Made by a program: the position numbers and the translations under genes. DNA of 52,311 nt from assembly GCA_031266175.1 (NCBI GenBank), contig JAISBN010000087.1, positions 1 through 52,311 of the forward strand, given 5' to 3'. This document shows, one piece after another, positions 17,443-22,581 of this stretch. The DNA is from Treponema sp. (GTDB lineage: Bacteria > Spirochaetota > Spirochaetia > Treponematales > Breznakiellaceae). The notes beneath the pieces are model-generated. The model saw only the letters and a program-made list of their open reading frames with translations, was not told the origin of the DNA and did not search any database. Each line of letters opens with the position of its first letter. Position 1 is the stretch's first letter.

Positions 17443-18120
17443 TTACTCAAGGGGCTCAACCCAGTATACATCATTATCGTATTCAACGATACGGACCGTT
17501 TTCCCCTTGGGAAGCTGTACCCCGGCATCCCGGCACCGGACGTAAAGTTCCGTTTCCCTGCCAAACTGCCGTACCGCGGCTTTGGAAATTTGTCCCCCCT
17601 CCAGGGGAAGGAGCAGGACCCCCGTTTCCATCAGAAATTCATCGGGCTTGATGGAAGAATCCAGGTCCCGCCGGATAAACCGGCGGAGGAGCCGGGCAAA
17701 GACCGCTATGAGCGATCCCATGACACAGGCCCAGACCAGGCCCCCGGTCCGGGAAAGGCCGGTAAACCAGGCAAAAAGTCCCGTGGGGCCAAAGCCCAGG
17801 GAAAAGTATACCACGGTCCGCAGCAGCCCCATGACGGCCGTTAGCGCCCTGACGCCGGCGTCCCCGGGACTGAGGTAGGAACCGTGGTCATGGTCCGCGT
17901 TATCCCCTCGGGAGTCGTTATGCCCGCCCGGGCCATGATAGCCGCCACCGGCGCCGTCGTCCGTATGTCCGGCGCCGTGATCGCCGGCGTCCGCATAATC
18001 GTCCGCGTGTCCGTCATGACCATGCCCGCCGGCGTGGTCCAGGATTCCCAGGAAATCGATAACGGTAACCCCTATCCCAAAAACGGTCAGGGCGGAATAG
18101 AGGATAAATAAATTTCCCAT
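17443..18120 (-). CDS. NfeD-like membrane protein with a His/Asp/Gly-rich segment
   Basis: Hydrophobic helices and OB-like C-terminus (VGTAVRQFGRETELYVRC-like KAAVRQFGRETELYVRCRDAGVQLPKGKTVRIVEYDNDVYWVEPL); DHAGGHGHDGHADDYADAGDHGAGHTDDG segment; downstream of flotillin genes in the same orientation cluster. Confidence 0.6.
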   Translation of the reverse strand: MGNLFILYSALTVFGIGVTVIDFLGILDHAGGHGHDGHADDYADAGDHGAGHTDDGAGGGYHGPGGHNDSRGDNADHDHGSYLSPGDAGVRALTAVMGLLRTVVYFSLGFGPTGLFAWFTGLSRTGGLVWACVMGSLIAVFARLLRRFIRRDLDSSIKPDEFLMETGVLLLPLEGGQISKAAVRQFGRETELYVRCRDAGVQLPKGKTVRIVEYDNDVYWVEPLE

Positions 18121-18316
18121 GGGGGTATACTATCCAATTACCGGGGTACTATCAATGGCGAAGGCGGTTACCATGGTATCAGGCCGCCCGCCCGGCGGCC
18201 GGGTCCCGGCGCGAAAGGCGGCGGGGGAAGATGGGTGTATACCAAATATACCGATACGCCGTAGGCAGTCAAGGAAACCGGCGGCCGGGCACATGCCGGT
18301 GTTATCGGATGCCGGT

Positions 18317-18670
18317 TTAATAGTTATTGTAATCCAAAGATTCAACAATAACTTTCTTGACAGCGGACACCAAATGTGAAGCAATTTCTTTTTTGATATC
18401 CACAGGAAGACTTTTGAGGCAATCTTTCGTGGTGACTTCTCTTTTTCCCGGTGTTTTGCCGGGGTCTTCAATAAATAGGCGAAAAGAATCTACCCGCAGA
18501 GCGGTGGCAATTTTTTCTATTTTCTCGAAAGAGGGTATCCGTCTTCCCATTTCGATCTCACTTATATAGTTGCCGCTTGAATCACATAATTCGGCAAGGG
18601 CCATTTGGGATATTCCTAATTTATTCCTGTAGTTTTTGACATTTTGGATAAAAATTTCCTGTAAGCGCAT
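18317..18670 (-). CDS. XRE-family HTH transcriptional regulator
   Basis: NVKNYRNKLGISQMALAELCDSSGNYISEIEMGRRIPSFEKIEKIATALRV, classic XRE/Cro HTH. Confidence 0.9.
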   Translation of the reverse strand: MRLQEIFIQNVKNYRNKLGISQMALAELCDSSGNYISEIEMGRRIPSFEKIEKIATALRVDSFRLFIEDPGKTPGKREVTTKDCLKSLPVDIKKEIASHLVSAVKKVIVESLDYNNY

Positions 18671-18676
18671 AACTAT

Positions 18677-18689
18677 AGTCTAATAGACA
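18677..18689. promoter_or_regulatory. Operator-like palindrome O1 (aGTCTAATAGACa)
   Basis: GTC-N5-GAC palindrome centred at 18683 in the divergent intergenic region. Confidence 0.65.
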
Positions 18690-18711
18690 AGTACGGCTAA
18701 TATAATTCAAC

Positions 18712-18724
18712 TGTCCTATTGACA
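18712..18724. promoter_or_regulatory. Operator-like palindrome O2 (TGTCCTATTGACA), overlaps the -35 box
   Basis: GTC-N5-GAC centred at 18718; includes TTGACA (18719-18724). Confidence 0.7.
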
Positions 18725-18747
18725 TATTTAACGGCTTCAATTATACT
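18719..18747 (+). promoter_or_regulatory. Sigma70-type promoter of the glycosyltransferase gene
   Basis: TTGACA (18719-18724), 17-bp spacer, TATACT (18742-18747). Confidence 0.75.
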
Positions 18748-18759
18748 GTCTATCAGACA
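18747..18759. promoter_or_regulatory. Operator-like palindrome O3 (TGTCTATCAGACA), overlaps -10 end, predicted TSS and first base of ATG
   Basis: Perfect 5-bp arms, centred at 18753. Confidence 0.7.
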
Positions 18760-19862
18760 TGAAATTTTTGACTATCATCCCAACCTACAATGAGGTTGAA
18801 AATATAGAACCGCTTGTACACGCTCTTTTCGGACAAATCCCCCAAGATGCCGGAATCCTTGTTGTCGATGACAATTCGCCGGACAGAACAGCTGAAACAG
18901 TTGAAAACCTGATCCCCCGTTATCCTCGCCGGTTACATCTCTTAAAACGTCCCGGAAAAAAGGGACTGGCTCAGGCATACATCGCCGCTTTTGAATGGGG
19001 GATCACCCGTGGTTATGAATTGTTCCTTGAGATGGACGCCGACTTCTCGCATAATCCGGCTTATATTCCCGGCATGCTCAAAGCAATACAGACCCATGAT
19101 GCTGTTATTGGTTCCAGGAATATAAAAGGCGGCGCCGTTGAAGGATGGTCTTTTTGCCGTACAGTACTTTCCAAAGGCGGCTCCCTCTATGCCCGAATGA
19201 TATTGGGCTGCCCCGTTAAAGATTTAACCGGCGGCTTTAATATGTGGACTAAGAACGCTTTGAAACAGATAAGCCTAAATCGTATTGTTTCAAAAGGGTA
19301 TCTTTTCCAAGTCGAAATGAAATATCGTGCCCACATCGCCGGGTGTTCCATAAAGGAAATCCCGATACTTTTCTCCGACAGAAAGTACGGCATATCCAAG
19401 ATGTCAAAAAAGATTTTTCTGGAAGCGTTACTAAATATTTGGAAAATCAAAAAAGCCGCAGGCAAAGATACAGCTCTTGATCAATCTATAAAATTTTTTG
19501 TGACGGGCGGACTGGGAACTATCACTAATTTGATCATCTTTTTTCTCTGCACAGATCTTGCAGGGCTGCCGGAAATCCCCGTTAGTATAGCCTGTTTTTT
19601 TATTGCCGCAAGCCAAAATTATGTTATCAATCACAGCTGGTCTTTCAGGGCTTCCAAAGAAAAAACAGTTTTATCCGTTACAAAATGGGGTGCATTTCTA
19701 TGCGTTTCTCTTTTAGGGCTTGGCGTAAATATTGCCGTATTGAATTTTGTTTTTGCATATTTTTCTCTGCCCTATAAATTTATTGCCCAGATCTTTGGCA
19801 TTACGGCGGGGATGGGGGTAAATTTCGCCGTATCAAAAATGGTTGTATTCAGGAGGGAATGA
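18759..19862 (+). CDS. Polyprenol-phosphate glycosyltransferase (GT2, DPM/GtrB-like) fused to a C-terminal GtrA domain
   Basis: MKFLTIIPTYNEVENIEPLV, EMDADFSHNP, DLTGGFNMW; four hydrophobic helices with SQNYVINHSWSFR typical of GtrA. Confidence 0.88.
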   Translation: MKFLTIIPTYNEVENIEPLVHALFGQIPQDAGILVVDDNSPDRTAETVENLIPRYPRRLHLLKRPGKKGLAQAYIAAFEWGITRGYELFLEMDADFSHNPAYIPGMLKAIQTHDAVIGSRNIKGGAVEGWSFCRTVLSKGGSLYARMILGCPVKDLTGGFNMWTKNALKQISLNRIVSKGYLFQVEMKYRAHIAGCSIKEIPILFSDRKYGISKMSKKIFLEALLNIWKIKKAAGKDTALDQSIKFFVTGGLGTITNLIIFFLCTDLAGLPEIPVSIACFFIAASQNYVINHSWSFRASKEKTVLSVTKWGAFLCVSLLGLGVNIAVLNFVFAYFSLPYKFIAQIFGITAGMGVNFAVSKMVVFRRE

Positions 19863-21187
19863 ACATTAAGCAGATTCTTTTTTGTTACCCGACAGCTTGT
19901 TCGATAGTACTCGAAAAGAAATATTTTTGGATGATAATTCTTTTTACCCTTTTGGCCGTTAGATGGCTGTATCGTTTTATTAATGCCACACTTTGGGCAG
20001 AAGATGGAGCCCTTTTCTTATCCCAGGCTTTTCAGTTTGGATATAAATCTCTAGGCATGCCGTATGCCGGATATTTTCATACTTTACCGAGGATAATAGC
20101 CTATTTTGCAAGCTTTCTCCCATCGCTATTCGTTTCACATTTTATAATACTAAGTTGTTTTGTTTTTACATACTATACTATTTCTAAAATTTTCTCTGAT
20201 GATTATGAATGGATCATACCAAAAATTTATTACCGGGGTTTATTGGCGGTTTTACTTGTACTGGTACCCGGAACACAGGAAGCCTACGGAAACATTGCAA
20301 ATCTGCATTGGGTTTTGTATATGTATCTGGCTGTCCTTGGATTAAAAAGACCGGATTCTAAATTTACAATTCCGGAAATATGCATAACGGCATTAGCTGT
20401 ATTATCAGAAGGAGCAACTTTAACATTGTTACCGTTATATTGTATGCGGCTGGTTTTCCAATTTTTAAGAAAGCGGGGCATTTATTTTTATATCCAGGAA
20501 ATGCTTATGGTTGTTTTTATTCTTCTCCTTGGGGTAATCAATTTTTCAATTCGAGAACAGTCAACAGTAAATGTAAATTTAATTTTTCTCTTGAAGATTT
20601 ATATAAAAACTACCGTTTGTGAATTTTTATCTTATCCCTGGCTCTACTCAACATTATATAAAGTGCAAAGTAAATATTGGATAGTTCCGGGTTTTTATTT
20701 GTCTGCTTTTACGATTTTTTGGTTAGTAAAAAGACCCAGAAAAGAGGATTTTTGGATTCCTGTTTTCTTTTTTGGTTCGGTCTTATTATATCCTGTCATG
20801 ATCGGGGTTGTAAGACCCGGCAGCGCCTTTTCTGAAGGTTCCTGGTGGCTGTTTATGCGTTATGGTTTTCCTGCCGGATTTAGCGGGTATATTTTCTGGG
20901 TTTGGTTTTTATCCGGCTTGAGATTAAAAAACGCGAGTTTTGTAAATTTTGTATTTGTATATTTAACGTTGATGTCTTTTGTTTTTTCTTTACATTCAGG
21001 TTTTTTCATTCAACCGGCAAAGCAAACAAATTATTTTTTTATTCATTCTTCTGAGATCGATAATGTAAGAACTAATAAAGAAAGTAAACAGATAGTTATT
21101 CCCATTGAACCTAAAGACTGGGCCATGTCCATTGGATCTGGCCAAACAAAAATATTAATAAACCCAAATACGGCAGATCGACGGTGA
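19859..21187 (+). CDS. Polytopic membrane protein, candidate GT-C-like (GtrC-type) glycosyltransferase
   Basis: 442 aa, many TM helices; extracytoplasmic-loop-like NATLWAEDGALFLSQAFQFGYKSLGMPYAGYFHTLPR; 4-bp overlap with the GtrB/GtrA gene. Confidence 0.65.
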   Translation: MNIKQILFCYPTACSIVLEKKYFWMIILFTLLAVRWLYRFINATLWAEDGALFLSQAFQFGYKSLGMPYAGYFHTLPRIIAYFASFLPSLFVSHFIILSCFVFTYYTISKIFSDDYEWIIPKIYYRGLLAVLLVLVPGTQEAYGNIANLHWVLYMYLAVLGLKRPDSKFTIPEICITALAVLSEGATLTLLPLYCMRLVFQFLRKRGIYFYIQEMLMVVFILLLGVINFSIREQSTVNVNLIFLLKIYIKTTVCEFLSYPWLYSTLYKVQSKYWIVPGFYLSAFTIFWLVKRPRKEDFWIPVFFFGSVLLYPVMIGVVRPGSAFSEGSWWLFMRYGFPAGFSGYIFWVWFLSGLRLKNASFVNFVFVYLTLMSFVFSLHSGFFIQPAKQTNYFFIHSSEIDNVRTNKESKQIVIPIEPKDWAMSIGSGQTKILINPNTADRR

Positions 21188-21199
21188 AATAGACATAAG

Positions 21200-21510
21200 T
21201 CAGGCTGTGAACCCCTTCATCCCCTGGAAATCAAAATTATCCTTCACTACAGCCAGGGGGACGGGGCTGACGGCGGTTCCTGACCCCGGATGGGCGGAGA
21301 TATAATCGTTAATATATTCCACAATGTTGGCGTTGGCGGAACTGGGACTGCCGCCTCCCCCGCCGTTACCACATTCGTCTAGTTTTCATCGGCCAGGATG
21401 AAGGGGAGCTCGTACGGAGCATGGGGCTTAAGAGTTTCCCGCACCGCTGCCCGAAATATTCCCGAAGGCGTACCAGGAGGGTCACAAACCCGTTACCGTA
21501 GACCTTAATG
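21200..21510 (-). pseudogene. Decayed coding remnant of unknown family
   Basis: Reverse strand reads ...APYELPFILADEN / DECGNGGGGGSPSSANANIVEYINDYISAHPGSGTAVSPVPLAVVKDNFDFQGMKGFTA* across different frames with an internal stop. Confidence 0.5.
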
Positions 21511-21539
21511 CGGTCGTCTCCTTAACGGTGTACCGGCCC

Positions 21540-21885
21540 GGTTCTCACTCATGAACCGGTACACCATTAGCGGGATTCCCCTTGTACGAAGGTGACGCGA
21601 ACTACCGTTCGGCCGCTTTTTTAGGATTTCATTCGCCGTCCGTAACGCCTTGGCTTCCTTCCGCAGCCGGGTCAGCTCCTCGTCCTGTGGCCATCCGTGA
21701 CCGGGAAAGGGCGGCAAGCCCGCCCCAGCCGTTCCCCGGGCTTGCTGTATTCGTCGGTACAGCAGCTTTTCGTTGATCCCTAAATTCGATGCTGCCCGGG
21801 GCATACCGGTTTCTCATGTTTCTCTGCCAGGGCTACACGCGCTTATCTTTGTGTCTACCAGACAGGGTTAGGTCCACTTTAGGGC
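21540..21885 (-). mobile_element. IS3-family element remnant (left end, degenerate orfA and start of orfB)
   Basis: AASNLGINEKLLYRRIQQAR...DEELTRLRKEAKALRTANEILKK is IS3 OrfA-like; frameshifted; terminal-like TGGACCTAACCCTGTCTGGTAGACACAAAGAT upstream on the minus strand. Confidence 0.7.
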
Positions 21886-21940
21886 GGTTAGATTTGGCAA
21901 CGCCAACAAAAAATGGTAGTAGACCCCACGGGTAAATAAT

Positions 21941-22023
21941 TTCCTTACAGAACGAACCTCGTAAATAATGCAACGCTTACAAGATACCCCGCCCTTCAGG
22001 CCTTCAGGGCGGGGAGGTTCATT
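21941..22023. repeat. 83-bp dispersed hairpin element, copy 1 (IS200/IS605 right-end-like)
   Basis: TTCCTTACAGAACGAACCTCGTAAATAATGCAACGCTTACAAGATACCCCGCCCTTCAGGCCTTCAGGGCGGGGAGGTTCATT, near-identical to 25379-25461. Confidence 0.85.
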
Positions 22024-22098
22024 TTATCCAAAATTTCCCCCCGATGTATTGCATTTAACGATAGTATTCGTTATATTAGGTGATAAGGAGAAGATGGA

Positions 22099-22581
22099 AT
22101 GCCGAAAACACCTAAAACGCCCGCGCCCAAAACGCCCAAAGTGACTGCGCCTAAGACGGCTGTGTCTAAAACGCCCGCGGCCAAAATGCCTAAAGCGCCC
22201 GCGGCCAAAGCGCCTGTGGTCAAAACGCCTAAGGCGGTTGTGTCTAAAGCGTCTAAAACGCCCGCGGTCAAAACCCCTAAGACGTCTGCGGTCAAAACGC
22301 CTAAGGTGCCTGCGATCAAAGCGCCTAAGACGCCTACAGCTAAAGCGCTCGCACAATCAGCGAAAACTGAACTGGAAGTGCGAAGGGAAGCAAACCGCCT
22401 GCGTCAGCAGCGCTTTCTTGAAAATCACCGGGAAGAAATCAACCGGCAGAGAAAAGAACGCTATGCCGCCAGGATACAGGACTCCCGGTGCCCCCGGTGC
22501 GGCAAAAAACTGCGGTCAAACAAGTTTGTATTGTGCAAAGACTGCCTTGAAAAAGCAAAGGAATATAACAAAAAAACATAA
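22099..22581 (+). CDS. Histone H1-like Lys/Pro/Ala repeat protein with C-terminal Cys4 zinc ribbon
   Basis: KTPK/KxPAxK repeats (MPKTPKTPAPKTPKVTAPKTAVSKTP...) encoded by a 15-bp periodic DNA repeat; C-terminus CPRCGKKLRSNKFVLCKDC. Confidence 0.75.
   Translation: MPKTPKTPAPKTPKVTAPKTAVSKTPAAKMPKAPAAKAPVVKTPKAVVSKASKTPAVKTPKTSAVKTPKVPAIKAPKTPTAKALAQSAKTELEVRREANRLRQQRFLENHREEINRQRKERYAARIQDSRCPRCGKKLRSNKFVLCKDCLEKAKEYNKKT

Follow-up and report, generated by a model that had tools for sequence, protein, structure and literature searches.

Between an XRE-family regulator gene (xre) and a divergently transcribed glycosyltransferase gene, a Treponema genome carries three evenly spaced palindromes that, together with the regulator, very probably make up a self-contained switch, in which the XRE protein acts on its own three-operator array and controls both itself and the divergent gene. 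We examined this locus in a contig of 52,311 nucleotides (the whole of which we call the window) and across related genomes, where it belongs to a large family of XRE modules with members in 143 of 201 genomes and up to 17 copies per genome (E value threshold of 1 × 10−15). The array is kept with xre while the gene that it faces changes, and the half-sites of the operators differ with the class of the XRE protein.

The three operators share the form GTC-N5-GAC, with centre-to-centre spacings of 35 and 35 bp, and lie between xre on the reverse strand and a DPMS-GtrA-type glycosyltransferase gene on the forward strand (Table 1). A previous sequence-only reading of this DNA had described these palindromes, with O1 just upstream of the xre start, O2 over a TTGACA box, O3 over the end of the −10 box, the predicted start site and the first base of the glycosyltransferase ATG, and a 17-bp promoter spacer; each of these placements and all coordinates proved exact, with O1 6 nt upstream of the xre ATG.

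Table 1 Coordinates of the switch module and adjoining cassette genes in the window.
Feature	Sequence	Positions	Strand	Remarks
xre		18317–18670	−	117-aa HTH_3 regulator, predicted cognate binder
O1	AGTCTAATAGACA	18677–18689		centre 18683; overlaps predicted xre −10; 6 nt upstream of xre ATG
O2	TGTCCTATTGACA	18712–18724		centre 18718; contains target −35; about 43 bp upstream of predicted xre start
O3	TGTCTATCAGACA	18747–18759		centre 18753; spans −10 end, predicted start site and A of target ATG
Predicted xre −10 box	TCTATT	18682–18687	−	inside O1; 11 nt before ATG
Predicted xre −35 box	TTGAAT	18705–18710	−	abuts O2; outside any operator
Target −35 box	TTGACA	18719–18724	+	inside O2; conserved in core loci
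Target −10 box	TATACT	18742–18747	+	ends 6 bp short of the O3 centre in 15 of 20 core loci
Glycosyltransferase (target gene)		18759–19862	+	GT2 fused to GtrA/DPMS transmembrane domain; membrane protein
Second cassette gene		19859–21187	+	442 aa; overlaps glycosyltransferase stop by 4 nt (ATGA)

Among 100,000 dinucleotide shuffles of positions 18671–18761 (91 bp), 99,328 contained no GTC-N5-GAC and 672 contained one, compared to three in the real sequence, and a within-sequence test for three evenly spaced, mutually similar palindromes reached z = 8.8, more than in any other module tested. Single sites are not exceptional: TGTC-N5-GACA, with up to one mismatch allowed, does not exceed its chance frequency in the window, and the 2.58-Mb genome holds 9 exact copies compared to 15 for a reversed control. 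The genome scan that the sequence-only reading had called for thus found no enrichment of this form, and a pattern scan for the perfect form GTCTAWTAGAC found a single occurrence in the genome, which is O1. As the single motif is not enriched and the triple never arose in shuffles, the significance sits in the array, which is real and local. A fourth palindrome, TGTCTACCAGACA (21852–21864), shares 12 of 13 bases with O3 and lies 3.1 kb downstream, past the cassette; with a position weight matrix score of 10.0, compared to 13.5–18.1 for O1–O3, it could be a chance occurrence or an auxiliary site. An RNA element at the locus was also considered, and dropped because 18000–22300 has no Rfam match.

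The XRE protein belongs to the HTH_3 family (Pfam E value 1.1 × 10−12, 48.2 bits against a gathering cut-off of 23) and has its helix-turn-helix at residues 11–61 followed only by two C-terminal helices (residues 81–87 and 90–112), leaving no C-terminal S24 peptidase or oligomerisation domain. Its start methionine is invariant in 14 sequences and its structure model reaches a pLDDT of 85.7. By both sequence and fold its nearest solved relatives are C.BclI, C.AhdI, NHTF and SinR, with NHTF the top structural match and SinR among the closest structures.

Scanning genome contigs with this protein returned 13 relatives at 49–60% identity, nearly all from metagenome-assembled genomes (MAGs) named Treponema or Spirochaetaceae/Spirochaetota, whose termite-gut origin we read from their isolate names. 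In a family-wide search, a clear gap separates a core group above 155 bits from paralogues below 140, and after removal of duplicates the core set comprises 23 readable loci, 20 of which can be aligned. The window XRE is of this core type, with three GTC-N5-GAC sites spaced within the 34–36 bp of the family definition and a divergent target promoter. Outside the family, a phylum-wide sample of 297 genomes contains the core type once, in the record of locus L019, and by inspection more distant XRE members have related arrays.

Orthologous intergenic regions, whose alignment the sequence-only reading had proposed, bear out the link between array and regulator. In 22 of the 23 core loci the three-site array keeps essentially the same position with respect to the xre start, with pair spacings of 34–36 bp except for one of 35/32, while the divergent gene differs at nearly every locus and encodes beta-barrel-like, lipoprotein, solute-binding or CsgG/LpoB-like proteins. 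Two of these 22 arrays, in L019 and L021, are weak or shifted. L014 has a core XRE without an array; in L014/L044 this lack of an upstream array may reflect loss or rearrangement. O1 is the most conserved operator, and many relatives have a weak right arm in O3; at O2, half-site columns average 1.62 bits compared to 0.42–0.47 in the flanking spacer columns. Matches to the glycosyltransferase itself occur in 42 further genomes, and at the 29 homologous loci that we read the 150 bp upstream of the gene contain no GTC-N5-GAC. The array thus travels with xre and not with the target, and a conserved pairing of glycosyltransferase and module was not found in the orthologues read.

Beyond the core group, half-sites differ among paralogue classes (GTC, AGC, TGC and GGC). 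The per-sequence triple-palindrome test worked for most core loci, not for single paralogues. Roughly 110 non-core modules were read, and palindromic motifs were instead fitted at the level of classes and compared with shuffles. Fitted class motifs score 34–43 (34–37 for the GTC/GAC, GAGC/GCTC, TATGC/GCATA and TTAGC/GCTAA motifs) compared to 15–21 in shuffles, so that paralogue arrays reach significance for whole classes and not for single sequences. The motifs are aTGTC-TAATA-GACAt in the core class (spacing 35/35 bp), gAGC-TAATA-GCTc in the TDPxYI class (GAGC/GCTC, 31/33), TATGC-TAATA-GCATA in the TSTSYIGEIEIN class (31/32), TTAGC-TAATA-GCTAA in the IGNR class and TTGnC in the NHI class (24/41). 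The TTG-start class, whose xre carries a normal Shine–Dalgarno sequence, has no clear array at that place (22.8, compared to a background of 17–18). With O1 located by the central CTAATAG only, GN or SN at helix-turn-helix residues 33–34 are accompanied by GT half-sites (16 of 19 modules) and TS or AS mostly by TG, an association that is significant but confounded by phylogeny and is used here in a supporting role only. This co-diversification of XRE classes and half-sites points to the XRE protein as the cognate binder of the array, which it almost certainly is.

Several individual modules deserve mention. Members L149, L154, L160 and L162 of the TDPxYI class are repeatedly paired with MBOAT-like acyltransferases (confirmed by Pfam for L154 and L162), and L154 and L160 have near-perfect GAGCTAATAGCTC operators. 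The genome that contains the window also has more distant XRE genes (L062, L064 and L065; G000 C48, C74 and C126), which again are divergent to exported or lipoprotein-like genes. Distant relatives in other spirochaetes (L220, L226 and L227) adjoin what by inspection are DNA methyltransferase-like genes, a hint of ancestry among restriction–modification (R–M) controllers.

Promoter geometry is conserved in the core group, with O2 on the target −35 box, O3 on the predicted target start and O1 on the likely xre −10 box. The glycosyltransferase promoter (TTGACA-17-TATACT) matches the sigma-70 consensus at 11 of 12 positions. In the 20 core loci that can be aligned, the right half of O2 holds the target −35 box, the spacer measures 16–18 bp and the distance from the −10 end to the O3 centre varies from 3 to 7 bp. 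On the opposite strand, TTGNAA-like xre −35 columns beside O2 are conserved (C in 19 and A in 18 of the 20 loci); TCTATT stands at the same −10 position in about half of them, and in most core loci this or a similar hexamer lies within O1, ending 7–13, mostly 9–12, nt before the ATG. The xre promoter matches at only 6–8 of 12 positions, which counts against the proposed switch.

We propose that the region of the divergent promoters holds three copies of the palindromic operator of XRE, to which the protein binds, presumably as a dimer. Occupancy of O2 and O3 would block RNA polymerase at the glycosyltransferase promoter, and occupancy of O1, over the xre −10 box and start, would limit synthesis of XRE itself; because O2, at about −43, borders the xre −35 box, mild self-activation might occur at low XRE levels. 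Such a switch would be private to its locus, as one member of a large module family in termite-gut treponemes. The position of the sites over the target −35 box and start and over the xre −10 box supports both repression and autoregulation, and together with the array following xre and the co-diversification of classes and half-sites it favours the view of the sequence-only reading that XRE is probably a cognate, autoregulating repressor. Since the 35-bp spacing amounts to 3.3 helical turns, the sites do not share one face of the helix, which does not favour simple side-by-side cooperativity.

The same layout could serve an XRE that mainly activates its target, or that both activates and represses. 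The XRE protein NceR protects three sites at the ompA promoter of Neisseria, one of them within the −35 region, and activates ompA (PMC10470515), and C.Csp231I activates and represses its own promoter (PMC4824078). We regard this as improbable for the window, as its target promoter is already near-consensus and needs no activator, and O2 and O3 cover the −35 box and start site, the usual place for repression.

The predicted leaders of the two transcripts qualify this repressor switch further. Core xre genes lack a Shine–Dalgarno sequence (median duplex ΔG of 0.2 kcal/mol compared to about −6 to −12 for most targets, a contrast somewhat inflated as target starts were picked partly by their Shine–Dalgarno), and with the −10 box so close to the ATG, xre is predicted to be translated from a near-leaderless mRNA across the core group. 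The window glycosyltransferase likewise has no Shine–Dalgarno; its ATG is at 18759–18761, with no other start codon on the stretch from the −10 box onwards, and the predicted leader is 4–6 nt. As its coding region appears fused directly to O3, the target mRNA would also be near-leaderless. Other predicted core targets start at least 103 nt from the xre ATG and have a Shine–Dalgarno leader, which makes the near-leaderless target a predicted peculiarity of the window. The leaderless glycosyltransferase mRNA put forward in the sequence-only reading therefore stands as a prediction for this one gene and does not extend to the family, where it is the xre mRNA whose predicted leaderless character is conserved.

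Here, the module seems to have become attached to a glycosyltransferase operon within an AT-rich cassette (about 18300–21200), with a GC content of 34–43% over 18.5–21.0 kb compared to roughly 55% around it. The glycosyltransferase is recognised by Glycos_transf_2 (4.5 × 10−24) and GtrA_DPMS_TM (5.8 × 10−20) in Pfam; the 442-aa product of the second cassette gene has no family match and a neighbouring 225-aa protein no Pfam match. In a congener (G102, 68% complete), two flanking genes have 94–95% protein identity and the matching DNA is mostly 93–96% identical, falling to 84% nearest the break, and a different gene set, without the cassette, stands beside the gene for the 225-aa protein. Being AT-rich and absent from the matching place in G102, the cassette looks acquired or rearranged. 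Adjoining it, an ORF at 21505–21804 reads like a fragment of an IS3-type transposase OrfA. An ORF at 22099–22581 encodes 160 aa with KTPK/APK-type repeats followed by a cysteine-containing tail, without a Pfam match.

Might the fusion of O3 to the glycosyltransferase ATG be an assembly join, and the near-leaderless target an artefact? The sequence comes from a MAG, the join is found in no other genome read, and the other core targets are predicted to keep a leader; yet O3 is intact on both arms with the A of the ATG as its last base, the promoter, the operator and the reading frame fit together seamlessly, and GC is similarly low on both sides, which together make an artificial join quite unlikely.

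An N-terminal signal is present in 88 of 117 targets of the module family (75%), compared to 51 of 232 control ORFs (22%; p = 6 × 10−22), and a lipobox in 45 targets compared to 11 controls (p = 4 × 10−15), both called by simple rules. Ten example targets in Pfam include MBOAT acyltransferases, a DXD glycosyltransferase, CsgG/LpoB, a solute-binding protein, BspA-type leucine-rich repeats and NHL repeats. By these predictions, the module targets are mostly exported or envelope proteins. A leftover XRE antitoxin-like or phage immunity gene, with the glycosyltransferase as a coincidental neighbour, would account for the scores of XRE against phage repressor families, RstR (NF041951, its best NCBIfam model, at 38.4 bits under a cut-off of 80) and HipB/Y4mF (also below cut-offs), and for the IS-like fragment nearby. 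It is nonetheless highly unlikely: no toxin or phage gene was recognised next to the window xre, family targets are mostly envelope proteins, promoter geometry is conserved in the core group, and 50,697 phage records yielded only two weak partial matches (38–43% identity), which give no indication of a phage origin. That the palindromes belong to another, global regulator beside which xre merely lies is scarcely credible and was rejected on the genome scans, for although the shortness of the motif and the frequency of XRE proteins speak for it, the perfect motif occurs only once in the genome, TGTC-N5-GACA shows no genome-wide enrichment, the array follows xre across genomes and not the target, and half-sites change with XRE class.

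In the open-access literature, we found no description of this module family. On the reading of XRE as a local, self-regulating repressor, we tentatively suggest that termite-gut treponemes might hold sets of insulated switches, each next to its own surface gene and with operators diversified against cross-talk; each might even be bistable, giving combinatorial surface variation without DNA rearrangement, and modules could become attached anew to other envelope genes, of which the glycosyltransferase would be an example. If confirmed, the family would be a natural collection of more than 100 repressor–operator pairs in which protein and site have apparently changed together, useful for reading the XRE recognition code and as a source of orthogonal regulators, and would represent a new way to govern envelope proteins, lipoproteins among them, in uncultured spirochaete symbionts.

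Among known systems, CI and OR of phage lambda combine divergent promoters, three operators with OR2 at about −43 of the regulator promoter, from where CI activates its own promoter, and a near-leaderless regulator mRNA. The window module shares with it the divergent promoters, the number of operators and a middle site at about −43, and for xre a near-leaderless mRNA is predicted; it differs in its spacing (35 bp compared to about 24 in lambda), in lacking the CI C-terminal peptidase domain, Cro and a phage context, and in a target that is no second repressor. The likeness to a phage switch drawn in the sequence-only reading thus holds for geometry and not for origin, given the few phage matches and the closest structures, which are R–M controllers, NHTF and SinR. 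SinR/SlrR and RstR share the HTH_3 fold; they are regulators of global or phage type, and their different operators and partners set them apart from the window XRE.

NceR of Neisseria gonorrhoeae is likewise an XRE protein with three sites, predicted in our case, which in its case are protected and lie at an outer-membrane-protein promoter (PMC10470515); it differs in activating, and the available part of its description mentions no co-diversified family of private operators. The R–M controller C.Csp231I has CTAAG-n5-CTTAG operators, a leaderless C mRNA and dual self-control through two sites (PMC4824078). The window module is alike in its palindromic operators with an N5 core and its proposed self-regulation, and the xre sequence predicts a leaderless regulator mRNA; as in C proteins, palindromic operators stand at the regulator's own promoter (three sites in 22 of 23 core loci), and among solved proteins the controllers C.BclI and C.AhdI are some of the nearest in sequence and fold. 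It differs from R–M controllers in its three sites, 35 bp apart over a divergent promoter pair, in the extra C-terminal helices of XRE, in the mostly envelope targets of its family and in its setting, as no restriction endonuclease or methyltransferase gene adjoins the window xre, whose neighbours encode the glycosyltransferase and the 442-aa and 225-aa proteins. By analogy, the module would work like an R–M controller or a phage repressor switch, but it belongs to neither group.
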